Origin: a virus
Reading direction: 5' to 3' (one strand)
DNA: 32,463 bases
Virus record (IMG/VR): IMGVR_UViG_3300021960_009052
Location: 1 to 32,463 of that record
Shown: positions 5,548 through 32,184 of the stretch, piece by piece
How the letters are laid out: every line of letters starts with the position of its first letter
How positions within the stretch are numbered: position 1 is the stretch's first letter
Program-made: the position numbers and the translations under genes
Notes under the pieces: model-generated
The model's input: the letters and a program-made list of their open reading frames with translations, nothing else
Database searches by the model: none
What the model was told of the DNA's origin: nothing

Positions 5548-8500
5548 ATGGCTAAAAATATTAAAATAGTTCCTAATCCAACAGGTTCTACACCATATAT
5601 TCTTTTTACTAATGATAGTGGCGATGAAATAGTCATGAACGTCGCTGATGATGGTTCACTTATTTTTTCAGGAAAGACACAAGGAGATGAACTTGTAAAG
5701 ATGGATGCCGACACTCTTAACTTTCATGTTAAGGGTGATATTGACTTTGATAATGACATTAACTTCAAAGGAAATTTAGGTACTGATTCCAGTGGTGATT
5801 GGGTTGGTAGTGATGAAAGAATCAAAGGTCAGAAAGGTGAAGTTGGTCAAAAAGGTCAAAAAGGTCTTAAGGGTGACAAAGGTTTCAAGGGTTCAAAAGG
5901 TACCAAAGGTATTTTAGGTCCTGTAGGTGAAAATGTTAAAGGTCAAAAAGGTGATAAGGGTGACGATGGTTTCGGAGGTTCATGTCCACCACCACCAACA
6001 ACTTTTACATGGTTTTATGAGGATTGTATTCCAGGTTGGGACCCTACCGCATCAGATAATGTGATAGAAATTTGGTACTCAGGGTTTATGAGTGTTCCTG
6101 CCTATGACGGTGATTATTTCTGTGAAATAAATTCAAGGGTATCACAAAGACATGCCTTACAACAGACCGTGACGGTAGAGTCGGGACAAGAATACGAACT
6201 TTCTTTTGCTCATAGAGGTAGGTCTTCAGGAGGTCCCTTCCCTAACATCATGAATGTTAAGATTCAAGGAGGTTCTACAAATATCGATGTGGGTACATTT
6301 ACTGGTATTACTTCGGCTTGGACAGTAAACACACATACATTCACACCTACAGATTCAAGTCTAGTGTTGACATTTAGTTCTACCACTGCGAGTGATGGTG
6401 GTAACTTTTTGGATGCTGTAGAATTGACCAAAACATCTGATGGTACTGATGTGATGGTAAACGGTAGTTTTGAGGAATTTCAAACGGGTAATGTTGGTCA
6501 GAAAGGTACTAAAGGTGATAAAGGTCAAAAGGGTGATACACAAAAAGGACAGAAAGGTACTAAGGGTGATAATCCTAAAGGTCAAAAAGGTCAACAGGGT
6601 GCATCGCCACGAGGTAATCAGGGTGCTAAAGGTACTAAGGGTCCTCAAGGTGGTTTAGGTACTGTTGGGGACAACTTCCAAGGTTCAACAGGTCCTACAG
6701 GTGATAGTAGTCCAGGTGATAAGGGTCAAAAGGGTGAAGCATCTAAAGGGGATAGAGGTCCTGTTGGTGATAATAACCCAGGTCCTAAAGGTCCTACAGG
6801 TCAGAAGGGTGAAAAAGGTATTAAAGGTATTAAAGGATTCACCGCACCTGCTGGTGGGACTGGTGATAAAGGACAAAAAGGTGTTAAAGGAGCCAAAGGT
6901 ACAAAAGGAGTTGATGGACCGAAAGGGGTCAAAGGTTTCAAAGGTGATAAGGGAGTAAAAGGTAATAAGGGTGGTACAGGTGCATCACCACAAGGTAATA
7001 AAGGTAATAGAGGGGCATCACCTCAAGGTCCCCAAGGTTCTACAGGTACTTCACCAATTGGTTCTCAAGGTAATCAAGGTGGTCAGGGTGCTCAAGGTGG
7101 TGTTGGTGATTCAACAAAAGGTAACAGAGGTTCTCAAGGTGATGCCAATCAAGGTGCTAAAGGACCAAAAGGTTATGATAATCCAGGTCCAAAAGGACCG
7201 ACGGGTGATACAAATCAAGGACCGGGTGGTTCAACAGGACCAACGGGGCCTGGTGGTGACAAAGGGCCAACAGCACCTGCAGGTGGTGTGGGTGACAAAG
7301 GGCCGACAGGTAATGATGGACCAAAAGGTAATAAGGGTATCAAAGGTGGTACGGGAGCCAAAGGTAATAAAGGTCAAAAAGGTGCTCAAGGTCCAAAAGG
7401 TAATAAAGGTAATAAGGGTTTAAAAGGATTCAAAGGGGTCCAAGGTAATTCACCTAAAGGTCCTAAAGGGTTTATTGGTGACTCACCACAGGGACCACGA
7501 GGAGCTACAGGTGCATCACCGCAAGGGCCACAAGGTGTACAAGGAAATCAAGGTGGACAAGGTGGTGTAGGTGCATCGACACAAGGACCTCAAGGTACAA
7601 CAGGTGATTCTAATCCTGGTGCTAAAGGACCTAAAGGTTATGCTAATCCAGGTCCAAAAGGTGGATTAGGTTCAACAGGTCCGATAGGTGATAAAGGTTA
7701 TACTGCTCCGGCAGGTCCTAAAGGTATTAAAGGGCCAACAGGAAATGACGGACCGAAAGGTAACAGAGGTGCTGCAGGTGCTGATGGACCAAAAGGTAAT
7801 AAGGGTACTAAAGGTAACAAAGGTTTCAAAGGTGTTCAGGGTAATTCACCAAAAGGTCCTAAAGGGTTTATAGGTACATCTCCTCAGGGTGCTGGCGGTT
7901 CAACAGGTGATTCGCCACAAGGTCCGAGAGGTAATACTGGAGGACAAGGAGGGCAAGGTGGAGTTGGTGACTCAGTAAAAGGATATAGAGGTCCTCAAGG
8001 TGATGCAAATCCTGGTGGTAAAGGGCCTAAAGGTTATGCTAATCCAGGTCCACAAGGACCAGGTGGTTCTACAGGTCCAACAGGGGACAAGGGTTACACT
8101 GCTCCGGCAGGTCCTAAAGGTATCAAAGGACCTACAGGAAATGATGGGCCAAAGGGTAATAGAGGTGCCGCGGGTGCTGACGGACCAAAAGGACTTAAAG
8201 GATTTAAGGGTACTAAAGGTAATAAGGGACCACAGGGTAACTCACCACAAGGAGCCAAAGGTCCACAAGGTAATTCACCGAAAGGTAATAGAGGAACTAC
8301 AGGTGCATCACCAAAGGGTAATAGAGGTGGTGCTGGTGGTCAAGGTCCACAGGGTCCTACAGGTGGTAATAACCCAGGACCAAAAGGACCTAAAGGTTAT
8401 GCAAATGTGGGTCCAAAAGGTCCAAAAGGTTATGCTAATCCAGGTCCTAAAGGATATACTTCAACTGATAAGGGACCAAAAGGATATAAAGGTCCAACTG

Positions 8501-10023
8501 CACCAGATGGTCCTAAAGGTACTAAAGGACAGAAAGGTGCTACAGGTGGTAGAGGTAATACGGGTGGTGTTGGTGATAAAGGAGCCAAAGGTCCTAAAGG
8601 TTATGTTGGTGAAAAAGGTTTCCGAGGTGCTAAAGGACCTCAGGGTAACTCACCACAAGGACCACAAGGTGGACAAGGTGCTTCACCACAAGGACCAGGA
8701 GGTGATAAGGGACCAAAAGTACAAGGTTACAGAGGTGTTCAAGGTGACCGTGGACCTGGTGGTTCAACGGGGCCTGTAGGTGCAAATAATACGGGACCTG
8801 GTGGTTCAACAGGTGACCCAGGTACTAAAGGTGTTAAAGGTTATAAAGGACCGATTGACAGAGGAGACCAAGGTTCCGCAGGTGCCAATTCAACGGACAA
8901 GGGACCGAAAGGTTATAAAGGGCCAACTGCTCCTGATGGTGTGAAAGGACCTAAGGGTTATAAAGGTGCTACAGGTGGTAGAGGTACCACTGGTGGTGTT
9001 GGTGATAAAGGAGCCAAAGGTCCTAAGGGTTATTTAGGTAATAAAGGTAATAGAGGTGCACAAGGTGCTGACGGACCTAAAGGTGATAGAGGAAACACAG
9101 GTAATAGAGGACCAGGTGGTTCAACAGGTCCAACATCAAATGATAAGGGACCTAAAGGATTTGCAAATCCTGGACCAAAAGGTACTAAAGGTAATAAAGG
9201 TCCAAGAGGACCTGTTGGATACACAGGACCACAGGGTTCTACAGGTGAAGCTGGTGCTAAAGGTGGTGCTGGTTCACCAGGGGCCAAAGGACCTAAAGGG
9301 TATAAAGGTTATCCATCTTATCAAGGACCAAGAGGTCCCCAAGGTGGAGGTGGACCTAAGGGTTTTAGAGGACCTATAGGTGACACAGGACCTCCAGGGC
9401 CAGGTAGTTGTAATGCTATTCAATCGTATTATCATTGTGATGACTCAGTTGCGTTATGTTTTGAATTAAATTTAGCTACTTTTTATTCTGACACCTGTAC
9501 CTCGTGGGCACCGGGTTGTCCATTCAAAACCACACCAGGATGTGAGGCTTGTGATTCGGGGAATCCATGTTCTGGTGGACCTCCAATAATGTATATCAAC
9601 ACTCCAGGTACCGTTGAAGTATATGATGTTGATTTAGGTCTATGTAGTGTTTTGGGAGTGGCGGCTAACTGTCCTGGTGGGCCAACACCAATACCAAGGT
9701 CGGATAGAAGGTTGAAAAAAGAAATTCAGACATTGACTAATGTTACAGAAAAACTGTTACAAATAGAATTGAAAGAATACGATTGGAACATGTCATTACC
9801 TGCTTATGAATACTTGAAAGAGAGAGATAAGTTACACTCGATTGGTATCATTGCACAACAGTTGGAACCAATCATTCCTGAGGTTATTTTTAAAAATAAA
9901 GATGGTTATTTAGGTATCCACTACTCAATGTTAAATGCCTACTTAGTTCAATCGGTTAAAGAGCAACAGAAACTCATAGAAGAGATTGATAATGATATCC
10001 AAGAATTAAATAGTAAATTATAA
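5548..10023 (+). CDS. Collagen-like tail fibre 1 with carbohydrate-binding-like insert and S74 chaperone
   Basis: 1491 aa. Residues 1 to about 90 are a non-collagen head (MAKNIKIVPNPTG..., then TDSSGDWVGS), probably the virion anchor. Collagen Gly-X-Y triplets, mostly ending in Lys, run to about 142. An insert at about 145-312 has the look of a DUF642 or galactose-binding-like beta sandwich: PGWDPTASDN, QQTVTVESGQEYELSFAHRG, LTFSSTT, and FLDAVEL with VNGSFEE. A long collagen-like region covers about 317-1284, with regular GX4 interruptions. A Cys-rich knob with ten cysteines (about 1287-1381) follows. The end (about 1384-1491) is a peptidase S74 intramolecular chaperone (SDRRLKKEI, then GIIAQQLEPIIPEV). 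S74 domains help trimerise fibres and in several phages cut themselves off before the Asp of SD. The protein likely forms a trimeric adhesive fibre on the phage tail. Confidence 0.9.
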   Translation: MAKNIKIVPNPTGSTPYILFTNDSGDEIVMNVADDGSLIFSGKTQGDELVKMDADTLNFHVKGDIDFDNDINFKGNLGTDSSGDWVGSDERIKGQKGEVGQKGQKGLKGDKGFKGSKGTKGILGPVGENVKGQKGDKGDDGFGGSCPPPPTTFTWFYEDCIPGWDPTASDNVIEIWYSGFMSVPAYDGDYFCEINSRVSQRHALQQTVTVESGQEYELSFAHRGRSSGGPFPNIMNVKIQGGSTNIDVGTFTGITSAWTVNTHTFTPTDSSLVLTFSSTTASDGGNFLDAVELTKTSDGTDVMVNGSFEEFQTGNVGQKGTKGDKGQKGDTQKGQKGTKGDNPKGQKGQQGASPRGNQGAKGTKGPQGGLGTVGDNFQGSTGPTGDSSPGDKGQKGEASKGDRGPVGDNNPGPKGPTGQKGEKGIKGIKGFTAPAGGTGDKGQKGVKGAKGTKGVDGPKGVKGFKGDKGVKGNKGGTGASPQGNKGNRGASPQGPQGSTGTSPIGSQGNQGGQGAQGGVGDSTKGNRGSQGDANQGAKGPKGYDNPGPKGPTGDTNQGPGGSTGPTGPGGDKGPTAPAGGVGDKGPTGNDGPKGNKGIKGGTGAKGNKGQKGAQGPKGNKGNKGLKGFKGVQGNSPKGPKGFIGDSPQGPRGATGASPQGPQGVQGNQGGQGGVGASTQGPQGTTGDSNPGAKGPKGYANPGPKGGLGSTGPIGDKGYTAPAGPKGIKGPTGNDGPKGNRGAAGADGPKGNKGTKGNKGFKGVQGNSPKGPKGFIGTSPQGAGGSTGDSPQGPRGNTGGQGGQGGVGDSVKGYRGPQGDANPGGKGPKGYANPGPQGPGGSTGPTGDKGYTAPAGPKGIKGPTGNDGPKGNRGAAGADGPKGLKGFKGTKGNKGPQGNSPQGAKGPQGNSPKGNRGTTGASPKGNRGGAGGQGPQGPTGGNNPGPKGPKGYANVGPKGPKGYANPGPKGYTSTDKGPKGYKGPTAPDGPKGTKGQKGATGGRGNTGGVGDKGAKGPKGYVGEKGFRGAKGPQGNSPQGPQGGQGASPQGPGGDKGPKVQGYRGVQGDRGPGGSTGPVGANNTGPGGSTGDPGTKGVKGYKGPIDRGDQGSAGANSTDKGPKGYKGPTAPDGVKGPKGYKGATGGRGTTGGVGDKGAKGPKGYLGNKGNRGAQGADGPKGDRGNTGNRGPGGSTGPTSNDKGPKGFANPGPKGTKGNKGPRGPVGYTGPQGSTGEAGAKGGAGSPGAKGPKGYKGYPSYQGPRGPQGGGGPKGFRGPIGDTGPPGPGSCNAIQSYYHCDDSVALCFELNLATFYSDTCTSWAPGCPFKTTPGCEACDSGNPCSGGPPIMYINTPGTVEVYDVDLGLCSVLGVAANCPGGPTPIPRSDRRLKKEIQTLTNVTEKLLQIELKEYDWNMSLPAYEYLKERDKLHSIGIIAQQLEPIIPEVIFKNKDGYLGIHYSMLNAYLVQSVKEQQKLIEEIDNDIQELNSKL

Positions 10024-10163
10024 TGGCGACTACAGTAATTGTTTATCCATCAGGAACAACAGAAAATACTAACCCTCACGTTTTATTTTCGGGAGGTACA
10101 GGTACTACATATACTATTGAGATGACGACAACGGGTGAGTTGTTGTTTAGTCAAGATGTATAA
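10023..10163 (+). CDS. 46-aa stand-alone fibre N-terminal module
   Basis: Its ATG overlaps the stop of fibre 1 (TAATG). The product starts MATTVIVYPSGTTENTN and continues HVLFSGGTGTTYTIEM and GELLFSQDV. This follows the head of fibre 1 position by position (I-V-P-N-P-T-G..., then YILFTNDSG, EIVMNVADDGSLIFSG), so it is a copy of the first half of that head without any collagen. Fibre gene 2, next downstream, lacks this half but keeps the second half (DDGVWSGS). The two are in the same reading frame, separated by 45 nt containing further stops. It may be a separate anchor subunit for fibre 2, a cut-off remnant, or the product of gene splitting. Confidence 0.7.
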   Translation: MATTVIVYPSGTTENTNPHVLFSGGTGTTYTIEMTTTGELLFSQDV

Positions 10164-10193
10164 TATTTTAAACCGTAAACTACTAAATTGAAC

Positions 10194-10207
10194 TATTTAT
10201 AAAAGTA
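10194..10207 (+). promoter_or_regulatory. TATTTATAAAAGTA element before fibre gene 2
   Basis: The motif ends 1 nt before the ATG at 10209. If it works like a -10 box, the transcript would start at or after this ATG, so either translation begins further in (for example at the ATG at 10251, MKIYSPTK) or the element has another role. Confidence 0.35.
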
Positions 10208-10208
10208 T

Positions 10209-13200
10209 ATGAAACAGAACTTATTTCACATAGCGGACGCATCAACAAGAATGAAGATTTATTCACCAACAAAGATGAATAAAGGTCTTCGTGTTGGTAA
10301 CACTGACGTTGTTGGTGATGATGGTGTATGGTCTGGTTCTACAACCAATATTAAAGGTAATAAAGGTATTCAAGGTGATAAAGGTTATACGTCACCTAAG
10401 GGTATTAAAGGTAATATTGGAGGTGGTGGTGGACAAGGTCCTATTGGTTCTAAAGGTTCTAAAGGTGATGGTGTAACTCCGGGTTCTAAAGGTTCCACGG
10501 GTGAGAAAGGTATAAAAGGTCAAAAAGGTACTACAGGACCTAAGGGTTCTAAAGGTGAACTATTTAAAGGTCAAAAAGGTTCTGACGGTGAAGATAATAT
10601 CGGTTCTAAAGGTTCTACAGGTGAGACATTCCAAGGGTCTACAGGTGATGCAGGTACCGGAGGTAGTACGGGTGAAGTAGGTCAAAAAGGTCAGAAAGGT
10701 ACTAAAGGTAATAAAGGGATTAAAGGTCCGACAGCCCCAAAAGGAGAAAAAGGTACTAAGGGTACTACGGGTAGTGCAGGTAATAAAGGTGATAAAGGAC
10801 CTATTGCACCTGATGGTCCTAAAGGAACAAAGGGAACAAAGGGAACTAAAGGTGGACAAGGTAGTAAAGGTACACAAGGTGCTTCAATTAAAGGTAGTAA
10901 AGGACCACAAGGTAATTCAATCGTGGGTCCTCAAGGTTCAACAGGAGATTCCCCAAGAGGTAACACAGGTGGTGTAGGTCCAACAGGTGGTGGAGGTTCT
11001 ACTGGTGAAAGTAATCAAGGACCACAAGGTTCGACAGGTGATGCCAATCCAGGTCCAAAGGGACCTAAGGGTGATACTAATCAAGGTCCTCAGGGTTCCA
11101 CAGGTTCCACAGGTCCTGGTGGTGACAAAGGTCCAACGGCACCGGCAGGTGCGACGGGTCAGAAGGGACAAAAAGGTGACTTGGGTGCTAAGGGTAACAG
11201 AGGAGCTACTGGTGCTGATGGACCTAAAGGTAATAAAGGTCAGAAAGGTGTACAAGGACCTAAGGGGACTAAAGGGACTAAGGGTAATAAAGGACAGAAA
11301 GGTACTCAAGGTAGTTCACCTAAGGGACCTAAAGGTTTCATCGGTACATCACCACAAGGTCCTCAGGGAGCTCAAGGAAATTCTCCACAAGGACCTCAAG
11401 GTCCAACTGGTGCGTCTCCACAGGGACCACAGGGTGGTCAAGGACCGAGAGGTGGTCAAGGTGGGGTCGGTGATTCTACAAAAGGAAATCGAGGTGCTCA
11501 GGGTGATGCCAATCCAGGTCCAAAGGGACCTACGGGTGATACAAATCAGGGTCCTGGTGGTTCTACAGGTTCTACAGGACCTGGTGGTGACAAAGGACCA
11601 ACTGCACCTGCGGGTCAAAAAGGTCCAAAAGGTCAAAAAGGTAATTTGGGTGCTAAGGGTAACAGAGGTGCCACAGGTGGTGCCGGTCAAATAGGTAATA
11701 AAGGTGTTAAAGGTTTCAAAGGTAATAAAGGTGCCACAGGTAACTCACCACAAGGACCTAAAGGTTTCATTGGTCCATCACCACAGGGTCCAGGAGGTTC
11801 AACAGGTGCTTCACCACAAGGACCACAAGGTGGACAAGGAAATCAAGGTGGACAAGGTGGTGTGGGTGACTCTACAAAAGGTAATAGAGGTGCTCAGGGT
11901 GATGCCAATCCAGGTGGTAAAGGACCTAAAGGTTATGCTAATCCAGGTCCACAAGGACCAGGTGGTTCTACAGGACCGGGTGGTGATAAAGGACCAACAG
12001 CACCACGAGGAGCCACGGGTCAGAAAGGACAGACAGGTAATACAGGTGCTAAAGGTAACAGAGGTGCTACAGGTGCTGATGGACCAAAAGGTCCTAAAGG
12101 TTTTAAAGGTACTAAAGGTAATAAAGGTGTTACAGGTAACTCACCACAAGGACCAAAAGGTTATATAGGTTCATCTCCACAAGGACCGGGTGGTTCAACA
12201 GGTGCATCTCCTCAGGGACCACGAGGTGGTACGGGAGGTCAAGGTGGACCGGGTATTCCTGGTGATTCAACTCAAGGACCACAAGGTTCAACAGGTTCAT
12301 CAACTCAAGGGCCAGGAGGTTCTACAGGTGATAGTAATCAAGGACCTGGAGGTTCAACAGGTGATAAAGGTCCTAAAGGTATTAAGGGTTATACTGCTCC
12401 TGATGGTCCAAAAGGTAATAGAGGTGCTGCAGGTGCTGATGGACCTAAAGGTAACAGAGGTGCTACAGGTCCTGATGGTGCTAAAGGTTATGTTGGTGTT
12501 AAGGGTTATCGTGGTGCTAAGGGACCACAGGGTAACTCACCACAAGGACCACAAGGTGGACAAGGTGCTTCACCACAAGGGCCAGGAGGTGATAAGGGAC
12601 CAAAAGTACAAGGTTACAGAGGTAACCAAGGTGCTCGTGGACCTAATGGTTCAACGGGACCTGTAGGTGCAAATAATACGGGACCAGGTGGGTCAACAGG
12701 TGACCCAGGTACTAAAGGTGTTAAGGGGTATAAAGGGCCTATTGACAGAGGAGACCAGGGTGATAAAGGTCCTGCAAGTAATACTAAAGGACCAAAAGGA
12801 TATAAAGGTTTTACCGCACCAGATGGTCCGAAAGGACCTAAGGGTTATAAAGGTGCCACAGGTGGTAGAGGTAACACTGGTGGTGTTGGTGATAAAGGAG
12901 CTAAAGGTCCTAAAGGTTATTTAGGTGATAAAGGTTATCGTGGAGCTAAAGGTCCTCAAGGTAACTCACCTAAAGGGCCAAGAGGTGGTCAAGGTGCATC
13001 TCCACAAGGTTCTGGAGGTGACAAAGGTCCAAAAGTACAAGGTTACAGAGGTCCTATAGGTGGGCAAGGACAACAAGGTTCAACAGGTACATCTCCACAA
13101 GGACCTGGAGGTGATGCAGGTTTCAATTCAAATGATAAGGGACCAAAGGGTTTCAAAGGTGCTAAAGGTTTCCGTGGTGCGACAGGTAATGATGGTCCTA

Positions 13201-13748
13201 ACGGTAATCAAGGGGCACAAGGTGCTAAAGGTAATAGAGGACCTGCTAATAACACTAAAGGACCTAAAGGTTACAAAGGATATCAACCTGGAGGTTCAGG
13301 AGGTGATAAAGGATATAGAGGTGCTACAGGTGCGTTCGCTACTGGTCCTCAAGGTTCGTCAGGTGCACAGGGTAATAGAGGAGGACAGGGTTCTAAAGGA
13401 CCTGCAGGACCACAAGGTCCGGCTTCGGATATTCGTTACAAAGATAATTTAAAAGGTTTAAAGGGTAACATAGAAAAACTTTTAATGTTGAAAGGTCTTT
13501 ATTTTGAATGGAATGATGACGACTTTACTAAAACATACAGACCACAATTAAAGGGTGAATCTATTGGATTTATTGCACAAGAAGTTGAAGAAATCCTCCC
13601 TGAAGTTGTATTTAAAGATGACAGGGGTATTCATTCACTTAAGTATGATTTGATAACTGCCTTAGGTATTGGTACCGTTCAAGAACATATGGAGATAATT
13701 ACTGATATCAGAGAAAGAATAAATAAACTCAAAGAAGTTTTAGTATAA
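10209..13748 (+). CDS. Collagen-like tail fibre 2 with S74 chaperone
   Basis: 1179 aa. The head is short: about 45 residues, including VGNTDVVGDDGVWSGSTTN, the same pre-collagen element seen in fibres 1 and 3. It lacks the I-V-P anchor module, which the 46-aa gene just upstream encodes separately. Residues from about 46 to 1070 are Gly-X-Y repeats rich in Lys, Pro, Gln and Thr, with repeated five-residue breaks such as GNSPQ and GDANP. A peptidase S74 domain (about 1073-1179) starts ASDIRYKDNLKG and contains GFIAQEVEEILPEVVF; the SD pair is the expected self-cleavage site. There is no knob or lectin-like insert, unlike fibre 1. Its stop overlaps the start of fibre 3 (TAATG). Long stretches are nearly identical to fibres 1 and 3. 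Confidence 0.9.
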   Translation: MKQNLFHIADASTRMKIYSPTKMNKGLRVGNTDVVGDDGVWSGSTTNIKGNKGIQGDKGYTSPKGIKGNIGGGGGQGPIGSKGSKGDGVTPGSKGSTGEKGIKGQKGTTGPKGSKGELFKGQKGSDGEDNIGSKGSTGETFQGSTGDAGTGGSTGEVGQKGQKGTKGNKGIKGPTAPKGEKGTKGTTGSAGNKGDKGPIAPDGPKGTKGTKGTKGGQGSKGTQGASIKGSKGPQGNSIVGPQGSTGDSPRGNTGGVGPTGGGGSTGESNQGPQGSTGDANPGPKGPKGDTNQGPQGSTGSTGPGGDKGPTAPAGATGQKGQKGDLGAKGNRGATGADGPKGNKGQKGVQGPKGTKGTKGNKGQKGTQGSSPKGPKGFIGTSPQGPQGAQGNSPQGPQGPTGASPQGPQGGQGPRGGQGGVGDSTKGNRGAQGDANPGPKGPTGDTNQGPGGSTGSTGPGGDKGPTAPAGQKGPKGQKGNLGAKGNRGATGGAGQIGNKGVKGFKGNKGATGNSPQGPKGFIGPSPQGPGGSTGASPQGPQGGQGNQGGQGGVGDSTKGNRGAQGDANPGGKGPKGYANPGPQGPGGSTGPGGDKGPTAPRGATGQKGQTGNTGAKGNRGATGADGPKGPKGFKGTKGNKGVTGNSPQGPKGYIGSSPQGPGGSTGASPQGPRGGTGGQGGPGIPGDSTQGPQGSTGSSTQGPGGSTGDSNQGPGGSTGDKGPKGIKGYTAPDGPKGNRGAAGADGPKGNRGATGPDGAKGYVGVKGYRGAKGPQGNSPQGPQGGQGASPQGPGGDKGPKVQGYRGNQGARGPNGSTGPVGANNTGPGGSTGDPGTKGVKGYKGPIDRGDQGDKGPASNTKGPKGYKGFTAPDGPKGPKGYKGATGGRGNTGGVGDKGAKGPKGYLGDKGYRGAKGPQGNSPKGPRGGQGASPQGSGGDKGPKVQGYRGPIGGQGQQGSTGTSPQGPGGDAGFNSNDKGPKGFKGAKGFRGATGNDGPNGNQGAQGAKGNRGPANNTKGPKGYKGYQPGGSGGDKGYRGATGAFATGPQGSSGAQGNRGGQGSKGPAGPQGPASDIRYKDNLKGLKGNIEKLLMLKGLYFEWNDDDFTKTYRPQLKGESIGFIAQEVEEILPEVVFKDDRGIHSLKYDLITALGIGTVQEHMEIITDIRERINKLKEVLV

Positions 13749-16700
13749 TGGGTAAGAATATTAGAATAGTTCCAGGTGATGGGGTGTTTCAGTTTTCAGG
13801 AGCAACCGCTTCGACAATCAACTTGACATATAGTTCAAATGATGAAACACTAAAATTTGCTGGTACAGATAATTCCATTATACTTAGGAATAATCCACTA
13901 TACGAAACAGACGCTCGATTCAACGTTGAAGGTGGAGGTAATGTAAAAATCGGTGGTATCGATAGAATAGATTCTTCAGGTGTATGGCAAGGTCCTGCCG
14001 CGGTAAATGCCACAGGTCAAAAAGGTGTTAAAGGTATTGTTGGACCTACTGCATCAACCGCAGACCAGGGTGATAAAGGTCCTACTGGTGATATAGGAAC
14101 TAAAGGAACTAAAGGTGCATCTATTAGTGCAGAAAAAGGTCAGAAAGGACCTAAAGGTGGTCCTGGTACTACAGGTTCACAAGGTTCTGTCGGTGAAAAA
14201 GGTCAAAAGGGTCTTAAAGGTGCTACAGGTGATAAAGGACAGAAAGGTGAAATACCTTTAGATGGTGAAAAAGGACAGAAAGGTACCAAAGGACCTAAAG
14301 GTTTCAAAGGTGATGGAGGTCAAAAAGGTCAAAAAGGTATTAAAGGTAGTCAAGGTAATTCTCCTCAAGGTGCAAAAGGACCTCAAGGTTCTTCACCAAA
14401 AGGTGGTACTGGTGATGGTGGTGATTCACCAAAGGGTGATAAAGGTTTCCAAGGTAACTCTCCACAAGGAGGGGTAGGTGATAATGGTGCTGGTGGTTCA
14501 ACGGGACCTACAGGACCTACAGGTGCATCGACACAAGGACCACAAGGTGGTGCTGGTGATAATCATACAGGTGATAAAGGTCAAAAAGGTGAACCAGTTG
14601 TTGGTTCAGGTGGTGATAAAGGACCTACTGGTGAAAAGGGTCAAAAAGGTCAGAAAGGTGCACAAGGAGCCAAAGGTATTAAAGGGCCAACAGGTAATGA
14701 TGGTCCAAAAGGTACTAAAGGTATTAAAGGTGGTACTGGTGCTAAGGGTGTCAAAGGTACCAAAGGTAATAAAGGACAGAAAGGTACTCAGGGTTCTTCA
14801 CCTAAGGGTCCTAAAGGTTTTATTGGTACATCTCCACAGGGTGGAGGAGGTTCTACAGGTGATTCACCACAAGGTCCACAGGGTGCTACAGGTGCATCGC
14901 CTCAAGGTCCACAAGGTAATCAAGGTGCTCAAGGAGCACAAGGGGCTGTTGGTGATTCAACAAAAGGTAACAGAGGTGGTACGGGAGATGCTAATCCAGG
15001 ACCAAAAGGTCCTCAAGGTGACGCCAATCCAGGAGCTAAAGGACCTGTCGGTGATACAAATCAAGGACCAGTTGGTTCAACAGGTCCAACAGGGCCAGGA
15101 GGTGATAAAGGACCAACCGCACCAGCTGGAACTGCGGGAGACAAAGGACCGACAGGTAATGATGGACCAAAAGGTTTGAAAGGTTTCAAAGGAGGAGTTG
15201 GTTCCAAAGGTAATAAGGGTACAAAAGGTAATAAAGGACAAAAAGGTGTTCAAGGTAACTCACCAAAAGGTAATAAAGGTTCTCAAGGTACATCTCCACA
15301 AGGTGGAGGAGGCTCAACAGGTGATTCACCACAAGGACCACAAGGACCTCGTGGTAATCAAGGGCCACAAGGTATTTTGGGTGATTCGACTCAAGGTGAC
15401 AGAGGACCTGTAGGAGCACCAAATCCAGGACCTAAAGGTCCAAAAGGATATGCCAATGTAGGTCCAAAAGGTCCACAAGGTTCTACAGGGCCTGGTGGTG
15501 ACAAAGGACCTACTGCACCTGCAGGTGGTGTAGGTGATAAAGGACCGACAGGTAATACAGGTGCCAAAGGTAACAGAGGTGCTACAGGTGCTGATGGACC
15601 AAAAGGACCTAAAGGTTTTAAGGGTAACAAAGGAACTAAAGGTACTCAAGGTAGTTCACCTAAGGGACCTCAGGGTTATATAGGTAATTCTCCACAAGGT
15701 GCAGGAGGTTCAACAGGTGCATCGCCACAAGGTCCTAGAGGAAATACAGGGGGTCAAGGACCACAAGGTGGTGTAGGTGATTCTACTCAAGGTGACAGAG
15801 GACCTGTAGGAGCACCAAATCCAGGACCTAAAGGTCCAAAAGGATACGCAAACGTCGGACCAAAAGGACCAACGGGTTCAACAGGACCTGGTGGTGACAA
15901 AGGACCAACTGCACCTCCAGGACCAAAAGGTATTAAAGGACCAGTTGCACCAGCAGGTGCTAAAGGACCTAAAGGATATAAAGGTAATACAGGTGCTAAA
16001 GGACCTAAAGGATATAAAGGTGCTGTCGGTGTTAAAGGGGCTACAGGTTCATCACCACAAGGACCTGGTGGGTCAACAGGAGAATCACCACAAGGGCCAG
16101 GAGGTTCAACAGGGGATTCACCAAGAGGACCTCAAGGTGACCGTGGACCTGGTGGTTCAACAGGTCCCGTAGGTGCTAACAATACAGGACCAGGTGGGTC
16201 AACAGGTGACCCAGGTACTAAGGGTGTTAAAGGTTATAAAGGACCGATTGACCGAGGAGACCAAGGGTCTACAGGTCCAACATCTACAGATAAAGGACCG
16301 AAAGGTTTTAAAGGTTTTACTGCACCGGATGGTCCTAAAGGACCTAAAGGACAGAAAGGTGTTACAGGTGCCAGAGGTAACACTGGTGGAGTTGGTGATA
16401 AGGGTATTAAAGGACCTAAAGGTTTTTTAGGTGAAAAAGGTTATCGTGGTGCTAAGGGACCACAGGGTAGCTCACCTAAAGGGCCAAGAGGTGGTCAAGG
16501 TGCATCTCCACAAGGACCAGGTGGTGACAAAGGTCCAAAAGTACAAGGTTACAGAGGGGCACAAGGTGCTAGAGGAGGACAAGGTTCAACAGGACCAACA
16601 GGAGCTAATAATGTAGGACCAGGTGGTTCAACAGGACCGACAGGTACTAAGGGTGTTAAAGGTTATAAGGGACCGATTACCATAGGTTCAACAGGTGACC

Positions 16701-17404
16701 CAGGTACAAATTCAAATGATAAAGGACCTAAAGGTTATGCGAATCCAGGACCTAAGGGGCCTAAAGGATATGATGGACCGAAAGGTTATCGAGGAACACA
16801 AGGGACTCGTGGACCTCAGGGTTCGACAGGTGCGTCTCCAATAGGACCTCAAGGTTCGACAGGTGACCAAGGACCTACAGGATATAAAGGTGTAAATGGT
16901 AACCGTGGAACACTTGGAAGTATTGGTCCAAAAGGACCTAAGGGTCCAAGAGGTAATAATGGTAGTACTGGTTCAACTGCAGACCCAGGACCAAAAGGAC
17001 CTAAGGGTTATATTGGGCCACAAGGTAATAAAGGACCTAAAGGTTATGCAGGTCCTGTAGGGCCACCTTCAGATAGAAGATTAAAGAAAAACTACAGACA
17101 GATTGAGGACGCATTAGAACGAGTATTGAAGTTGAGAGGTGTTAGTTTCCAATGGAAAGAAATTATTAATGGTATTCCTCAGAACACTGAGGATATTCCA
17201 ACGGTAGGTTTCATTGCACAGGAGGTTGAGGAATATTTCCCACAGGCAATTTCAGAATCACCTGATGGAACTAAGTTAGTTAATTACCCAATCATGATTG
17301 CTGTTGTAACAGAAGCTCTTCAACAACAAAACAAATTACTCAGAACAAAAGAGTTACAAGTAGTTGATTTAGAAAGTAAGGCAAGAGAGAAGGGTTTACT
17401 TTAA
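13748..17404 (+). CDS. Collagen-like tail fibre 3 with S74 chaperone
   Basis: 1218 aa. The head (about 1-88) begins MGKNIRIVPGDGVFQFSG, related to fibre 1. It contains an extra beta-rich stretch (DARFNVEGGGNVKIGG) and ends in the shared element IDSSGVWQG. The collagen region (about 88-1105) has the same mixture of Lys-rich Gly-X-Y triplets and GX4 breaks, and shares the block GPGGSTGDPGTKGVKGYKGP with fibres 1 and 2. The S74 domain (about 1107-1218) reads PSDRRLKKNYRQIEDALERV, then GVSFQWKE and GFIAQEVEEYFPQAI, and ends in a coiled-coil-like helix (LQQQNKLLRTKELQVVDLES), as expected for a trimerising chaperone. The gene ends 9 nt into the convergent glycosyltransferase gene. Confidence 0.9.
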   Translation: MGKNIRIVPGDGVFQFSGATASTINLTYSSNDETLKFAGTDNSIILRNNPLYETDARFNVEGGGNVKIGGIDRIDSSGVWQGPAAVNATGQKGVKGIVGPTASTADQGDKGPTGDIGTKGTKGASISAEKGQKGPKGGPGTTGSQGSVGEKGQKGLKGATGDKGQKGEIPLDGEKGQKGTKGPKGFKGDGGQKGQKGIKGSQGNSPQGAKGPQGSSPKGGTGDGGDSPKGDKGFQGNSPQGGVGDNGAGGSTGPTGPTGASTQGPQGGAGDNHTGDKGQKGEPVVGSGGDKGPTGEKGQKGQKGAQGAKGIKGPTGNDGPKGTKGIKGGTGAKGVKGTKGNKGQKGTQGSSPKGPKGFIGTSPQGGGGSTGDSPQGPQGATGASPQGPQGNQGAQGAQGAVGDSTKGNRGGTGDANPGPKGPQGDANPGAKGPVGDTNQGPVGSTGPTGPGGDKGPTAPAGTAGDKGPTGNDGPKGLKGFKGGVGSKGNKGTKGNKGQKGVQGNSPKGNKGSQGTSPQGGGGSTGDSPQGPQGPRGNQGPQGILGDSTQGDRGPVGAPNPGPKGPKGYANVGPKGPQGSTGPGGDKGPTAPAGGVGDKGPTGNTGAKGNRGATGADGPKGPKGFKGNKGTKGTQGSSPKGPQGYIGNSPQGAGGSTGASPQGPRGNTGGQGPQGGVGDSTQGDRGPVGAPNPGPKGPKGYANVGPKGPTGSTGPGGDKGPTAPPGPKGIKGPVAPAGAKGPKGYKGNTGAKGPKGYKGAVGVKGATGSSPQGPGGSTGESPQGPGGSTGDSPRGPQGDRGPGGSTGPVGANNTGPGGSTGDPGTKGVKGYKGPIDRGDQGSTGPTSTDKGPKGFKGFTAPDGPKGPKGQKGVTGARGNTGGVGDKGIKGPKGFLGEKGYRGAKGPQGSSPKGPRGGQGASPQGPGGDKGPKVQGYRGAQGARGGQGSTGPTGANNVGPGGSTGPTGTKGVKGYKGPITIGSTGDPGTNSNDKGPKGYANPGPKGPKGYDGPKGYRGTQGTRGPQGSTGASPIGPQGSTGDQGPTGYKGVNGNRGTLGSIGPKGPKGPRGNNGSTGSTADPGPKGPKGYIGPQGNKGPKGYAGPVGPPSDRRLKKNYRQIEDALERVLKLRGVSFQWKEIINGIPQNTEDIPTVGFIAQEVEEYFPQAISESPDGTKLVNYPIMIAVVTEALQQQNKLLRTKELQVVDLESKAREKGLL

Positions 17405-21348: not shown

Positions 21349-22323
21349 TTATAGATAATCTTGGAAGTTGTCATTGATATATTCTCTGACTATTTCATCA
21401 TCAGCCCACTCAGGCCAAGAAACTCGGATTAGTTCACCTTCTTCATCTAAGTAATATTCTAAAAGTGATTCCAAGCTACCGTAGTATTCAAAGTCGTTAT
21501 CACTACTGTAACCTCCCCAACTTAAGACTGTCTTAACAACTTGTGGTAAGAGTTTTGTTACGTCAACCTGATAGTGAAAATCTTGAACTTCAATAGGTTC
21601 ATTGGTTCCGGCTTTGTACGTCTTCCTTTTATATGGAATCTCACGTGAGAAGAAATGTTCGTCAAATAAGTATCTTAACCCATTCATTACATCATTGTAT
21701 AACTCATCATAGATTGCTGATTCTTCAGCGTTTCTATGAATATTTTCTAATTCTGACAGTACATCAGGTGAATTTTCTTTGATGAATTTTGATAATTTAT
21801 CGTCGTCCATATTGTTGATGACATCTACAGTTACGATATCTTTTACACCATCAATTTCAACTTCTTGACTTTCAACTTCATTGTAAACTAAAGATTTTAG
21901 GTAACTTACATTCTCAGGTGTAAGGTCACCAATAAAATCAGTGAGGTCATAAATGTTAGAGTCTATATCTAAAAAAGGTGTATCTTCCTGTAAAATTAAT
22001 TTGGCTAGTGCTTTGGAATCTTCTCTATCATTAGCGAAGAACTTAGACATATCTTCACGGTCAATGGTCATCCAATATTTACCACCTTCCATAGTGACAT
22101 CATCAAGGTAACCCAATAAGAATTCAACAACGAATTTAGGATTCTCTTCGTAGTATATACTCATAACATCAGTTAGGTAACCTTCTTCAATTAAGTGGTC
22201 CATCATTTCTTCAATAAGATTTTTGGATTGAAGAAATTTCATAAAAGATTGGGTATCACCATTGAAATATTTCTTGATGAAATCTCCGAGGTCGTTATCT
22301 TCTAAAAACTGAATTAAGTCCAT
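21349..22323 (-). CDS. Large acidic hypothetical protein (324 aa)
   Basis: I do not recognise a family. The protein is strongly acidic and mostly helical by composition, with repeated short units in the first 90 residues (FLEDNDLGDFIKKYF, FLQSKNLIEEMMDHLIEEGY). The centre has TAT-like Asp/Glu clusters. The last third is aromatic and beta-like (VQDFHYQVDVTKLLPQVVKT, VLSWGGYSSDNDFEYYGSL). The style is like other hypothetical proteins of large marine T4-type phages. It starts 11 nt after a TATTTATA element that itself follows a terminator, so it is the first gene of a minus-strand transcript that may continue into the two oxygenases. Confidence 0.7.
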   Translation of the reverse strand: MDLIQFLEDNDLGDFIKKYFNGDTQSFMKFLQSKNLIEEMMDHLIEEGYLTDVMSIYYEENPKFVVEFLLGYLDDVTMEGGKYWMTIDREDMSKFFANDREDSKALAKLILQEDTPFLDIDSNIYDLTDFIGDLTPENVSYLKSLVYNEVESQEVEIDGVKDIVTVDVINNMDDDKLSKFIKENSPDVLSELENIHRNAEESAIYDELYNDVMNGLRYLFDEHFFSREIPYKRKTYKAGTNEPIEVQDFHYQVDVTKLLPQVVKTVLSWGGYSSDNDFEYYGSLESLLEYYLDEEGELIRVSWPEWADDEIVREYINDNFQDYL

Positions 22324-22334
22324 TGTGATGTTAT

Positions 22335-22347
22335 TTTACTATAAATA
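22335..22347 (-). promoter_or_regulatory. TATTTATAGTAAA candidate phage promoter
   Basis: On the minus strand the element lies 11 nt before the ATG at 22323 and directly after an intrinsic terminator, so a new transcript must start about here. This is one of the best contexts supporting a promoter role for the motif. Confidence 0.55.
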
Positions 22348-22348
22348 C

Positions 22349-22374
22349 AAAAAAAGGGAGAAATAATTTCTCCC
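22349..22374 (-). terminator. Intrinsic terminator for the MGCGC mini-gene
   Basis: Read on the minus strand, GGGAGAAAT/ATTTCTCCC forms a near-perfect hairpin followed by seven T. It lies 30 nt after the stop of the gene at 22404-22529. Confidence 0.8.
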
Positions 22375-22403
22375 CTATTTGTTTTTAATTCTTTGATTAC
22401 TAG

Positions 22404-27969: not shown

Positions 27970-28587
27970 ATGAGACCATATAGGATTAATGAGTCAGAGA
28001 AGAGAAGAATATTAAATCTTCATGAAACTGCCACAAAAAATGTGTATTTGAGTGAGCAGAGTAGTGAAGTTGATTTCGGGTATGGGTATGAAGGTAAACC
28101 TGCGGGTCAAGAAGTATTTGACCATGTTAGGGGATTGGAAGAATTTGTACCATTTGTATATGATGACAAAGCCGGATATCCTCCAAAACCTTATGACCCA
28201 AATTCAGGTTCACCAAAGGGTAAATTAACTATTGGTTATGGTACTACCAATCCTGAAATTATTAAAAAATATCTTAACAAAATTAGTCAGGAAGAAGCAG
28301 ATAGATTATCTGCTGAAGACATTAATGGGGCTGCTGAAACTGTTAGAGAGTGGCAAAGTGAGGACCCTGAAAATAGAAAACTCACTAAGGGTATGTATAT
28401 TGCTTTGATTGATATGGCTTATAATAGAGGTGAGGGTAACTTCAGACAAAGTGGGGTATTGAAACAAATCACAAATGGAAATTATAAACAAGCCGCACAG
28501 GAAATATTGAATGGTAAAGGTATTTGGGGTCACCCAGATAGATTGAAAAAAGACTATGAGATGTTCTGTAGAGACGGAGGATGTTAA
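27970..28587 (+). CDS. T4-type lysozyme (GH24) with short N-terminal tag
   Basis: 205 aa from the ATG at 27970; the TTG at 27964 is also in frame. The lysozyme domain starts near residue 40. HVRGLEEFVPFVYDDKAGY carries the catalytic Glu and the Asp, and KLTIGYGTT carries the Thr of the E-D-T triad. Later helices read ISQEEADRLSAEDIN and LTKGMYIALIDMAYNRG. It cuts peptidoglycan between MurNAc and GlcNAc. The loop between Asp and Thr is longer than in T4 lysozyme. The first 30 residues (MRPYRINESEKRRILNLHET) are not lysozyme. They look like the short E-S-E-x-x-R-I-L-x-L-H leader I have seen on other large marine phage proteins, perhaps a virion-targeting tag. The stop overlaps the next gene by 7 nt. 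Confidence 0.88.
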   Translation: MRPYRINESEKRRILNLHETATKNVYLSEQSSEVDFGYGYEGKPAGQEVFDHVRGLEEFVPFVYDDKAGYPPKPYDPNSGSPKGKLTIGYGTTNPEIIKKYLNKISQEEADRLSAEDINGAAETVREWQSEDPENRKLTKGMYIALIDMAYNRGEGNFRQSGVLKQITNGNYKQAAQEILNGKGIWGHPDRLKKDYEMFCRDGGC

Positions 28588-30014
28588 AAGATAGACAGAT
28601 GAAACAATTAATTAAAGAATCGGGTTTACGTAATATTGGTGAGTTAGCCAAGAGATACCCAAAGGCAAAAATTTACTTCCACCAAGATTTAGATGGTGTG
28701 ACTACAGCCTTAGCGATGAAGAACTATTTGGAAGATAACGGTATCAAAGTGGTTGATGCTGAGATTATTCAATACGGTGATAAGGAGTTTGCAGTTAAGA
28801 AGCAAGATGCTACAGGTGATACGATGCCTGTGTTGGTTGACTTTGCTCACGGTAAACCGATGTTCGTTATTCATACTGACCACCATGATTCTCAAAGTGG
28901 TGTTGAGGGTGATACAGCAACTTCATTCAGACCGTCACGTTCTAATGTTGCAACTATATCAGATGTTATGTCACCAAAGGATATCTTCCCTTCTGAGGAT
29001 ATCACATTGATTTCTACTGTGGATTCTGCTGACTTTGCTAAGTATGGTTTAGAACCACAAGATATTATGAATTTCATCTTCCGTTTGGATAAGGATAAGT
29101 CTTTACAGAAAAACAGAATGGCTTTGGGATTGGCGACAAACAAATTGATGTTGGCGTATAAGAACAAACCAGGTTTCATGGAAGAGTTGGTGATGACATC
29201 AAAACCATCATTATTGAATATCTTCCAAAACATTAGAAGAATTGCTGACAGAGAAAATTATGCATCTGCTGCGATGATGGCGGGTAATCAAGAAGATTAC
29301 GTACAACAAAGAAGTGAGGACCCGAATCTAAACTACCAAGATGGTATCATTTATCAATACGGTGGTGGTAGAATGTTCAAACCAGGTTCATACGATAGAT
29401 ACACACCATTTAAGTTACATCCTGACGCTGACTTCTTAATTACTGTTTGGCCGATGGGATTGGTTCAAGCATCGTGTAACCCATTTAAGAAAGAGAGAGA
29501 ACTCAAAGGTGTAAACTTGGGTGAGATTGCTCAGGAAGTATTGGGTAAGTGGGAAGCGAGTTTAAGAGAAAAAATCATTCCTTTATCAACTATTAAATGG
29601 ATTTCAGAATCGGCTAAAGACTTTGGTTCAGAATCCGTAGGTTTTACAAATGCAGATTTGGAAGCGTTCTATGGTGATAAGATTAGAAGTATGGAAGGTG
29701 GTGATGCATATATGGAAAACCTAAAACAGGTTATGGATAAGTCTTTCAGTGAATTGAGTGAAGATGAAATGGCGTTGTTGGATAAGTTGGGTGTACCTGC
29801 TTGGGAGATGATTCAAGCAAACTCAGGTGGACACAAATGTATCACAAACATTTCAGCGTTGAATTATTTTGGTAGAAGTAAGAGACCACCTCAAGGAAAA
29901 TACAAATACAATAAAGACAGTGGTGATGCACCATATGTTAAGTTCTCAAAGATGATAGGACAGGAGTTCTACAGAAAGTTGAGAGAAAAGATTGACGGAA
30001 GTAAATCAGAATAA
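28581..30014 (+). CDS. DHH-family phosphoesterase
   Basis: 477 aa. AKIYFHQDLDGVTTALAMKN (from residue 29) is DHH motif I (His34, Asp36, Asp38). Asp87 in VLVDFAH and IHTDHHD (Asp100, His101, His102) are motifs II and III. Near the C terminus NSGGHKCI (His418) stands in the place of the DHHA1 G-G-G-H motif. All metal ligands are present, so it should be active. DHH proteins include RecJ exonuclease, oligoribonucleases and cyclic dinucleotide phosphodiesterases. This protein is longer in the middle than nanoRNases, so the substrate is open. The ATG at 28581 sits right after CGGAGG, and the ATG at 28599 is another possible start. The gene overlaps lysozyme by 7 nt and is followed by a terminator. 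Confidence 0.88.
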   Translation: MLKDRQMKQLIKESGLRNIGELAKRYPKAKIYFHQDLDGVTTALAMKNYLEDNGIKVVDAEIIQYGDKEFAVKKQDATGDTMPVLVDFAHGKPMFVIHTDHHDSQSGVEGDTATSFRPSRSNVATISDVMSPKDIFPSEDITLISTVDSADFAKYGLEPQDIMNFIFRLDKDKSLQKNRMALGLATNKLMLAYKNKPGFMEELVMTSKPSLLNIFQNIRRIADRENYASAAMMAGNQEDYVQQRSEDPNLNYQDGIIYQYGGGRMFKPGSYDRYTPFKLHPDADFLITVWPMGLVQASCNPFKKERELKGVNLGEIAQEVLGKWEASLREKIIPLSTIKWISESAKDFGSESVGFTNADLEAFYGDKIRSMEGGDAYMENLKQVMDKSFSELSEDEMALLDKLGVPAWEMIQANSGGHKCITNISALNYFGRSKRPPQGKYKYNKDSGDAPYVKFSKMIGQEFYRKLREKIDGSKSE

Positions 30015-30797: not shown

Positions 30798-31009
30798 GTT
30801 TAATGTACAAAGCCCTCGTAGCGAAATACGAAGCAGAACTGTTGGAAGCAAAAGCAACATTGGAAGTTTACTTTAATAATTCCGTTGGAATTGGTGAACA
30901 CCCTCAACACTTAGAAGAGATGGATGGATTAGTTGATAAGATGGCTTCAGCGAGTGATAAATTGGAAGCACTTAAATCTAACTTTGATGAAAAGGGTATG
31001 GCCCGTTGA
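30794..31009 (+). CDS. Small helical phage protein (71 aa)
   Basis: The sequence opens MSLMYKALVAKYEAELLEAK and continues ATLEVYFNNSVGIGEHPQHL, then EEMDGLVDKMASASDKLEAL. Two amphipathic helices flank a conserved-looking turn, NSVGIGEHPQHLEEMD, that I recognise from small proteins in large marine phages. No function is known to me. The start overlaps the Nudix stop, and its end overlaps the next small gene by 23 nt. Confidence 0.7.
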   Translation: MSLMYKALVAKYEAELLEAKATLEVYFNNSVGIGEHPQHLEEMDGLVDKMASASDKLEALKSNFDEKGMAR

Positions 31010-31109
31010 TGGACCAAAAGACAGATACAGTGGATACTTTAAGTTATCCTACAACCCAATGTCCTTACTTTTTAAGGAAATAACTAAAAAAAATAAGAAA
31101 ACTACTTGA
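30987..31109 (+). CDS. Small basic hypothetical protein (40 aa)
   Basis: Starting at an ATG inside the previous gene, the +1 frame reads MKRVWPVDGPKDRYSGYFKL, then SYNPMSLLFKEITKKNKKTT. The composition (GPKDRYSGYFKLSYNP, basic tail) is protein-like. The rival 24-aa frame from the ATG at 31009 (MDQKTDTVDTLSYPTTQC) is much less so. The product is basic and could bind nucleic acid. It is the last gene before the long non-coding region. Confidence 0.55.
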   Translation: MKRVWPVDGPKDRYSGYFKLSYNPMSLLFKEITKKNKKTT

Positions 31110-31206: not shown

Positions 31207-31238
31207 TTTGACTAATTGAAATATTTGTTTTAATTTTG
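31207..31238 (+). promoter_or_regulatory. Bacteroidota-type promoter for the structured RNA
   Basis: TTTG (31207-31210), a 20-nt gap and TAATTTTG (31231-31238) fit the known Bacteroidota primary sigma form, -33 TTTG and -7 TAnnTTTG, in both sequence and spacing. Transcription should begin a few bases after 31238. No reading frame follows, so the product is RNA. Confidence 0.75.
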
Positions 31239-31240
31239 TC

Positions 31241-31260
31241 AGAGTTCTTTGAAATATTGG
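31241..31260 (+). promoter_or_regulatory. boxA-like leader at the RNA 5' end
   Basis: GTTCTTTGAAA (within 31243-31254) fits the boxA consensus GYTCTTTRANA that recruits NusB/NusE for antitermination on rRNA and on Bacteroidota CRISPR transcripts. It lies at the predicted transcript start, where a leader boxA belongs. Confidence 0.5.
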
Positions 31261-32143
31261 TCGTGTTTATATGTCGACTTTGAATTACATCTTCGGGTGT
31301 AATCCTTTCCAAAAGGAGATTATAAACAGACACGGCGGTTTAGCGTCGTTAGATAACCCCAGCAATGGGACTATAGGGATTGAAACGGGATTAGTACACC
31401 GTGAATATTCGCAATCGTGAGGTTGACAACTAAACAAAGTGGCTACGGCCGATTCCCCGAGGGCAACTGCTGGGGGGAAGAGGTCACTCTGAGTCCGTGG
31501 AATATCAGAGTTGAGATGGAGACATCAAGAGGAAAAGCTACAGGTGACGGTTCGACACACCCTGCAAGGTGTCGTAGGGCTGGGTACCAGTCTGAAGGGT
31601 TTCCGAGACGTAGAAGTCTACGAAGTCCTGACTGACCGTAAGTTTGCAGACTTACAGAGAGGTGTGAAGCATTCTGTTCTCCAAAGGAACGGACCTTCTC
31701 CCGAAGCACATCTTTCCTTCTTCCACAATTGCTAGTTTAATAACAATCCCGTAATCAGGGTAATACAATTAAATTAAAAGCAAGAGTCTTCGGGCGTTGA
31801 TAACGAAAGGTGTCTAATACTCCGAGTAAACACTAACGGAGTCGTTGATAAGACCGCAAGTCTTTCGATGTCAATAACAAAAGACCTGTTGGGACGGCCA
31901 TCCCTTCATGAACTCGCAAGGTTCAACAGAGTTAAGTAGTTGTTGAGTAGTTATTAACGAATACGATTGGTTAACGTAAGTAACCGACACTGACTTGATA
32001 CGATGGGCAACTATCGTGGACAATGTGAGCAACCGACTATTAGGGTAATCTCACGAAAGACAGGTCACATAAACGTGTAGTCTCAGCGTTCTATACCTCA
32101 TATACCTTCCTTGACCTCGGTGTTAACCCACCGAGGTTTTTTT
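31244..32143 (+). ncRNA. Giant structured non-coding RNA (about 900 nt), GOLLD/ROOL-like in style
   Basis: From its own promoter to its own terminator this stretch has no convincing protein frame and many stable hairpins. Examples are TGTTTATA/TATAAACA enclosing a UUCG hairpin (31284-31303), TTCCCC/GGGGAA (31453-31479), ACTCTGA/TCAGAGT (31486-31511), CGACAC/GTGTCG (31553-31574), CGTAG/CTACG (31609-31622), GTAAGT/ACTTAC (31638-31655), ACTCCG/CGGAGT (31819-31842) and GTGAG/CTCAC (32025-32054). The 3' half holds hairpins capped by GAAA, GCAA, GCAA and GTAA tetraloops. The base composition is visibly richer in G+C than the flanks. It is not rRNA, tRNA, tmRNA or RNase P by their known core motifs, and I see no intron core. 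Very large ornate RNAs of this kind (GOLLD, ROOL, OLE) occur in phages and bacteria. Whether it belongs to one of them or is new needs a covariance search. Confidence 0.8.
32114..32143 (+). terminator. Strong intrinsic terminator of the structured RNA
   Basis: A 9-bp stem ACCTCGGTG/CACCGAGGT with a TTAACC loop runs straight into seven T. Confidence 0.92.
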
Positions 32144-32153
32144 ATGCCCATAG

Positions 32154-32184
32154 TTGTCGTTTTCAGATATATTTCTTATCTTTG
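32154..32184 (+). promoter_or_regulatory. Bacteroidota-type promoter for the last gene
   Basis: TTG (32154-32156), a 20-nt gap and TATCTTTG (32177-32184) match TTTG/TAnnTTTG, with the last gene's ATG 20 nt downstream. Confidence 0.65.

Follow-up and report, generated by a model that had tools for sequence, protein, structure and literature searches.

Near the end of the window, by which we mean the whole stretch of DNA analysed (32,463 bases, an entire viral record), lies a gene for a member of the known GOLLD RNA family (Rfam RF02032) that turned out to stand on its own: a promoter, a 5' domain of about 325 nt, the conserved 3' domain, and a covarying terminator make up one transcription unit of about 900 nt. 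Its leader opens with an element that is most likely boxA, as in the rRNA operons of the probable hosts, and an rRNA-like leader of this kind appears to be a new part of a GOLLD gene. The features of the unit are listed here in order.

31207–31238, + strand: predicted Bacteroidota-type promoter, with TTTGAC at 31207–31212 and the -7 element TAATTTTG at 31231–31238
31244–31259, + strand: boxA-like leader element GTTCTTTGAAATATTG, recognised by its recurrence at GOLLD, tmRNA, tRNA arrays, and rrn operons
31333–31437, + strand: 5'A, first module of the GOLLD 5' domain (covariation; model R1)
31436–31545, + strand: 5'B, second module of the GOLLD 5' domain (covariation; model R2)
31541–31661, + strand: 5'C, third module of the GOLLD 5' domain (covariation; seen only in the clade of the window)
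31657–32089, + strand: GOLLD 3' domain, RF02032 at full length (cmscan, 297 bits, E = 3e-84)
31700–31706, + strand: CCCGAAG, pairing with CUUCGGG at 31788–31794 and forming a pseudoknot with the first Rfam helix
31738–31773, + strand: variable linker that joins the first hairpin of the 3' domain to the conserved core (length-variable alignment columns)
31788–31794, + strand: CUUCGGG, partner of 31700–31706
31891–31904, + strand: hairpin GGGA-cGGCCa-UCCC, equated by position with L21a (bridge B8)
32113–32143, + strand: intrinsic terminator, a 10-bp stem plus a T-run

The identity of the RNA rests on the cmscan match, which runs through model positions 1 to 416 of 416 and is well above the curated RF02032 cut-off of 150 bits. 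The model spans the conserved 3' domain only, and the roughly 400 bases that precede it form the 5' portion of this RNA. With the 5' domain upstream of the 3' domain, the total length comes to about 850 to 900 nt (31250–32143 is about 890), above the 800-nt mark or so of GOLLD, and the phage origin follows from the viral record and from terminase genes in the sister contigs G001 and G002. The sequence-only reading had described a large, ornate non-coding RNA in the style of GOLLD, ROOL, and OLE, and had allowed for a new member of a class as well as for a class of its own. The full-length match shows GOLLD proper, so that the first option stood and the second was excluded. The RNA itself is a strong, ordinary member of the family; what makes it a variant is that its leader is of the rRNA type, that it lies apart from tRNA genes, and that one 5' module is specific to the clade.

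The Rfam search suggested at that stage returned RF02032 only. No covariance model of ROOL, OLE, HEARO, group I/II introns, or RNase P matched anywhere in the window at E ≤ 1, which bears out the earlier impression that RNase P and intron cores were missing, and no second Rfam family appeared near the GOLLD region at the same threshold. ROOL and OLE, alike in size and ornate style, were dropped along with other RNA families for that reason. Elsewhere in the window four weaker Rfam matches fell below the cut-off and look like chance; below-cut-off matches at 22315–22384 and 2525–2598 (DapZ, STnc50) resemble terminator hairpins after genes. GOLLD ranks among the largest structured bacterial RNAs, and we know of no established function for it.

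With the cage-forming GOLLD env-38 and with RF02032 the window RNA shares the full-length 3'-domain match, the two-domain layout, the length of more than 800 nt, the phage origin, and the covarying helices, as well as an L21a-type self-complementary loop and the modules 5'A and 5'B, which occur in other GOLLDs. It differs in having its own promoter and terminator, a clade-specific 5'C module, an rRNA-type boxA leader, a loop palindrome of 4 rather than 2 nt, and no evident L21b palindrome, and in the distance to tRNA genes, which is at least 33 kb in the longer contigs. Neighbouring tRNA genes are usual for GOLLD, though not obligatory. None was found in the window or in the flanks of the GOLLD loci examined; in G001, G003, and G004 tRNA genes lie about 33 to 55 kb from GOLLD, and the GOLLDs of Papyrus-type mycobacteriophages are likewise without adjacent tRNAs.

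The region proved to be free of genes over about 1.1 kb, as had been claimed: the ORF list holds no credible gene between an ORF ending at 31009 and one starting at 32205. Three chance ORFs (72 to 88 aa) overlap the RNA, and all of them are disrupted in the homologues by frameshifts and stops, so the ORFs are not conserved. The proposed check for conserved codon structure thus uncovered no conserved coding, and a protein-coding reading, having been tried on the three ORFs, was dropped. The G+C content does exceed that of the surroundings, as reported, although the rise is modest (0.438 at 31501–32000 versus 0.356 to 0.378 in the two preceding 500-nt windows).

A search with a core pattern recovered 19 viral contigs with the same RNA, all confirmed with Rfam and 69 to 99% identical to the window RNA. 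In a set of bacterial genomes, to which the pattern test only was applied, no GOLLD with the core motif was found, and the two pattern matches (L015 and L016) were not GOLLD. The alignment of 18 homologous phage sequences gave a consensus of 204 pairs, 81 of which showed two-sided compensatory changes, that is, at least one sequence had both sides changed and the pair kept. The minimum free energy was -278 kcal/mol (z = -3.6 versus 20 shuffles), a value not taken as proof by itself, the covariation being the stronger proof. In three sub-alignments of the 5' domain 98.0, 99.7, and 99.5% of the cells were paired, figures favoured by the fact that the structures were derived from the same sequences, so that the compensatory changes are the independent part. 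Not one shuffle in 500 attained the covariation score of these sub-alignments, and when the partner was slid by 1 to 3 columns the pairing fell to 28 to 50%. Since covariation is present and the ORFs are broken in homologues, the RNA is real, structured, and non-coding; the stable hairpins named in the sequence-only reading are there, and the covariation it had asked for was found.

Among the helices so supported is the pseudoknot formed by 31700–31706 with 31788–31794 (columns 497–503 with 588–594), where four of seven pairs carry two-sided changes. The linker at 31738–31773 contains a small hairpin, and no tRNA was found in it. In published GOLLD structures the linker sits inside the cage.

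Models R1, R2, and R3 of the successive 5' pieces were then searched in the GOLLD loci of other phages. R1 was found at the matching place in the GOLLDs of two huge phages (634 kb, L040, E = 1e-5; 642 kb, L041, E = 1e-4) and of Acinetobacter phages (L038/L043, E = 0.008; L042, E = 0.03). R2 matched L040 only, in the 634-kb phage (E = 8.5e-8), R3 matched none of the other-lineage loci tested, and none of the three was found in the GOLLDs of Mycobacterium phages. Since 5'A and 5'B occur in other lineages and 5'C does not, sequence comparison marks this as a GOLLD-type 5' domain with a clade-specific end, in agreement with the lesser conservation described for the GOLLD 5' region (PMC12286853).

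The best-studied relative, env-38, forms a hollow, RNA-only 14-mer cage as seen by cryo-EM and is a 14-mer down to 12.5 nM; its half-shells are joined partly by L21a, a self-pairing kissing loop with switching GC/CG centres (PMC12286853). The hairpin at 31891–31904 probably corresponds to L21a, an equation made by position and behaviour, not by structural alignment. Most of the clade has GGCC as the core of this loop (31896–31899 in the window), L012 has AGCU, and L040/L041 have UCGA, all three cores being self-complementary, and many other GOLLD lineages have a shorter GC centre in a CGCAA loop. Such self-complementarity across three different cores would be hard to explain other than by loop-loop pairing between copies, which AGCU, as a new loop palindrome, supports. 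The L21b-type loop (bridge B9) is of CGCAAG type, GCAA-like, without a 4-nt palindrome. Hence only part of the published cage contacts can be recognised in the window RNA, and for the published bridge B7 (L20 with J13/15) no confident place was found in it. By analogy with env-38, the window RNA most likely assembles into a symmetric cage. The GOLLDs of Acinetobacter phages (L038, L042, and L043) show no L21a-type hairpin in the Rfam alignment, and their assembly, if any, may differ.

The promoter has a gap of 20 nt from TTTG to TAATTTTG, which agrees with the perfect-spacing Bacteroidota promoter announced earlier, and nearly all members of the clade retain it as TTTGA(C) plus TANNTTTG-type elements followed by AGTTCTTTGA. 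Its function is predicted from the known Bacteroides consensus, and the spacing places the putative transcription start at about 31242 to 31245. In L018/L019 the promoter is located further upstream of the RNA and the boxA-like element stays with the RNA; in L006 the sequence upstream of the -7 element of GOLLD differs and may be rearranged. A match to window positions 30945–31073 stands in its place, which looks like a deletion of about 150 bases and takes away the -33 element. At the other end, the strong terminator noticed before keeps its stem via compensatory changes (columns 934–949). The span first proposed for the RNA, 31244–32143, is therefore a close fit to the predicted start and to the end of the terminator; 31244 is also the first base of the boxA-like element, of which no mention had been made. 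Having independent promoters, the GOLLDs of this clade form a set that is useful for expression and structure work.

The promoter-proximal GTTCTTTGAAA of the window leader matches the boxA-like element of Bacteroidota rrn operons. We searched 25 GOLLD clusters (90% identity), a set collected with patterns that may over-represent one phage group, for GTTCTTTGA within 800 bases upstream of the 3' domain and found it in 14, compared with a mean of 0.15 and a maximum of 2 in 300 trials with dinucleotide shuffles. It was always located 354 to 510 bases before the 3' domain, and in 12 of these 14 clusters, as in most members of the window clade, TANNTTTG stood 13 to 37 nt upstream of it. About eight clusters have a short hairpin directly before the element, its stem sequence differing between clusters; the clade of the window has no boxB-like hairpin there, and its element begins only a few nt from where transcription is predicted to start, which sets it apart from rrn leaders. 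A boxB-like hairpin is not needed for the function of rrn boxA. The element is absent from the remaining 11 clusters and hence dispensable for GOLLD as a whole; these clusters include all those of Acinetobacter and Mycobacterium phages, where a boxA search upstream of GOLLD found nothing.

The element is shared with other stable RNA genes of the same phages. The four long sister-phage contigs G001 to G004 (270, 297, 152, and 113 kb, 832 kb in total) contain AGTTCTTTGANA 10 times, at three GOLLD leaders, one tmRNA (4 nt before the gene), four tRNA arrays, and two places elsewhere, and the reversed-pattern control occurred once. A second phage tmRNA and the start of one tRNA array carry GTTCTTTGAA right after TANNTTTG. 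Both phage tmRNA genes (G001:135635–136024 and G002:234463–234852; L048, L034) are preceded by a Bacteroidota promoter, with the boxA-like element immediately ahead of the RNA. At the tRNA arrays (G002:268460, G003:146597, G004:108649, and G001:165527) the element follows a tRNA by about 8 to 10 bases; at two or more of these sites it is soon followed by the start of an ORF, and it may also serve downstream genes there. In the open-access papers searched we found none that joins GOLLD with boxA, or with Bacteroidetes and phage.

For comparison with the host, eight plasmid-borne Bacteroidota rrn operons of about 6 kb each were used. G[TC]TC[ATC]TTGA occurred exactly twice on the sense strand in six of them, once 121 to 299 bases before 16S and once 74 to 151 bases before 23S; in the Chryseobacterium and Flammeovirga operons the exact motif was not found. 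This is the layout of boxA in the rrn operons of E. coli, with one set at the operon start and one before 23S (PMC10250234), and we counted it in favour of a boxA identity. The phage GTTCTTTGAAA differs at one position from the gammaproteobacterial boxA consensus GYTCTTTAANA (PMC5725501). The scanned viral contigs contained no Bacteroidota 16S starts. With rrn boxA the GOLLD element shares a core identical to that before 16S and 23S in Bacteroidota, a leader position after the promoter, and, in the roughly eight clusters above, a hairpin just upstream as in several rrn leaders. It differs in driving a phage non-coding RNA, in the missing hairpin of the window clade, and in that Nus binding is putative.

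We consider it fairly probable that the window carries a stand-alone GOLLD gene that is read from a host-type promoter by a Nus/boxA-modified RNA polymerase and whose product assembles into a cage. Host RNA polymerase would start at about 31242 to 31245, and the nascent boxA would recruit NusB and ribosomal protein S10, converting the polymerase to a processive complex of the rRNA type. Such a complex would finish the long untranslated RNA without early Rho termination and may aid its folding. The finished RNA of about 900 nt would be released at the terminator, fold into its 5' and 3' domains, and then form a symmetric cage as for env-38, its halves held together partly by GGCC loops that pair with one another. 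The first and the last of these steps are read from the sequence, the Nus step from the recurrence of the motif, and the cage from another, published member of the family. Counted against this view were the position of the element so near the start and without a hairpin in the window clade, the 11 GOLLD clusters and two rrn operons in which it is missing, and the L21b-type loop, where no palindrome is evident.

Three other readings of the leader or of the RNA were weighed. It is quite unlikely that the boxA serves mainly as a decoy, in which abundant phage RNAs would titrate NusB and S10 away from the host rRNA operons and so help to shut off ribosome synthesis, support of GOLLD expression being secondary. 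The presence of the element on GOLLD, tmRNA, and tRNA-array transcripts of the same phages and its match to the host rrn element fit a decoy, but such a role does not need the precise leader position at each stable-RNA gene, boxA acts in cis on its own elongation complex (PMC10250234), and phages that stockpile tRNAs and tmRNA would seem to need translation rather than its stop. Alternatively, GTTCTTTGA could belong to the promoter or act as an initially transcribed sequence, modulating promoter strength or the choice of start site in otherwise ordinary transcription. The distance of about 6 nt from the -7 box, in the window as well as at the tmRNA of G001, speaks for this; yet the element lies 24 to 29 nt beyond the -7 box in L018/L019 and in hairpin-type leaders, and just after a tRNA, far from a promoter, in tRNA arrays, L040, and rrn spacers, which makes that reading unlikely.

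A comparably low chance is given to the reading that this GOLLD relative forms no cage and acts as a monomer or while bound to ribosomes. According to reports cited in PMC12286853, GOLLD levels rise during lysis, and the RNA binds ribosomes in pull-down experiments. This binding, the L21b-type palindrome that is not evident, and the clade-specific 5'C module would all suit such a mode of action; against it stand the L21a-type self-complementarity kept through GGCC, AGCU, and UCGA and the persistence of the env-38 14-mer at 12.5 nM (PMC12286853). Next to nothing speaks for a long untranslated leader or a coding region of the neighbouring genes: the chance ORFs do overlap the region, but their frames are broken in the homologues, a conserved terminator precedes the next gene, and a separate TATCTTTG at 32177–32184 stands before the ORF that follows at 32205. 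The leader of the downstream gene was dropped as a candidate on the grounds of that terminator and separate promoter.

Extending the preferred reading, that of a stand-alone GOLLD gene transcribed by a boxA-modified polymerase, to the wider group, we find it somewhat more probable than its opposite that in a large group of phages with probable Bacteroidota hosts GOLLD, tmRNA, and tRNA arrays have come under the host rRNA antitermination signal, GOLLD being transcribed, folded, and perhaps assembled by an rRNA-type Nus complex. If true, GOLLD would be linked with the machinery of ribosome biogenesis, and there would be an explanation of how phages produce long untranslated RNA cages in quantity. 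The boxA-like signal supplies the first concrete trans-acting candidates (NusB, S10, NusA, NusG, and SuhB) and makes a point mutation a possible switch of GOLLD production. It also suggests that the phages handle GOLLD as an rRNA-like product alongside tmRNA and tRNAs, which points to translation or ribosomes as the context in which it functions. Since the leader is common to tmRNA and tRNA arrays and ribosome binding has been reported, we would guess that the setting of GOLLD is translation, and our best guess for the cargo of the cage during infection is something related to ribosomes or tRNA.

The virus had at first been taken for a Bacteroidota phage. Promoter type, boxA type, a TonB receptor gene, and likeness to moraphages support this indirectly, and a large phage with a Bacteroidota host is most likely, the host being predicted from these features rather than observed. 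Moraphages are described, in the searched text of PMC12619734, as jumbo phages that are predicted to infect Bacteroidota and carry glutamine synthetase. They have in common with the present group that they are large aquatic phages with a glutamine synthetase gene and predicted Bacteroidota hosts; different is that the same searched text has no report of GOLLD, a TonB receptor, or tmRNA. Window positions 1–1671 encode the C-terminal part of a TonB-dependent outer-membrane receptor (PF00593), whose homologues in the sister contigs G001, G002, and G004 have intact frames of 844 to 923 aa at 71 to 75% identity. Since intact homologues exist in three sister phage contigs, the receptor gene belongs to the phage and is no stray piece of host DNA. 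To our knowledge, such a receptor is unusual in a phage.

Other genes of the window were noted as well. The glutamine synthetase gene (2612–3745; PF00120, PF03951) is kept in G001 to G005 and G008 at 72 to 91% identity, with internal stop codons reported for the frame in G005 and G008, and it directly precedes GOLLD in L017 and L020 to L022. Three successive giant tail-fibre genes with collagen-like G-x-x repeats (1,179 to 1,491 aa) fill about 12 kb at 5548–17404, and their products have similar C-terminal ends. A DHH-family-like protein is encoded at 28581–30014, beside GOLLD in most of the clade, and shows 38 to 47% identity to proteins of the two huge GOLLD-bearing phages (634 and 642 kb).
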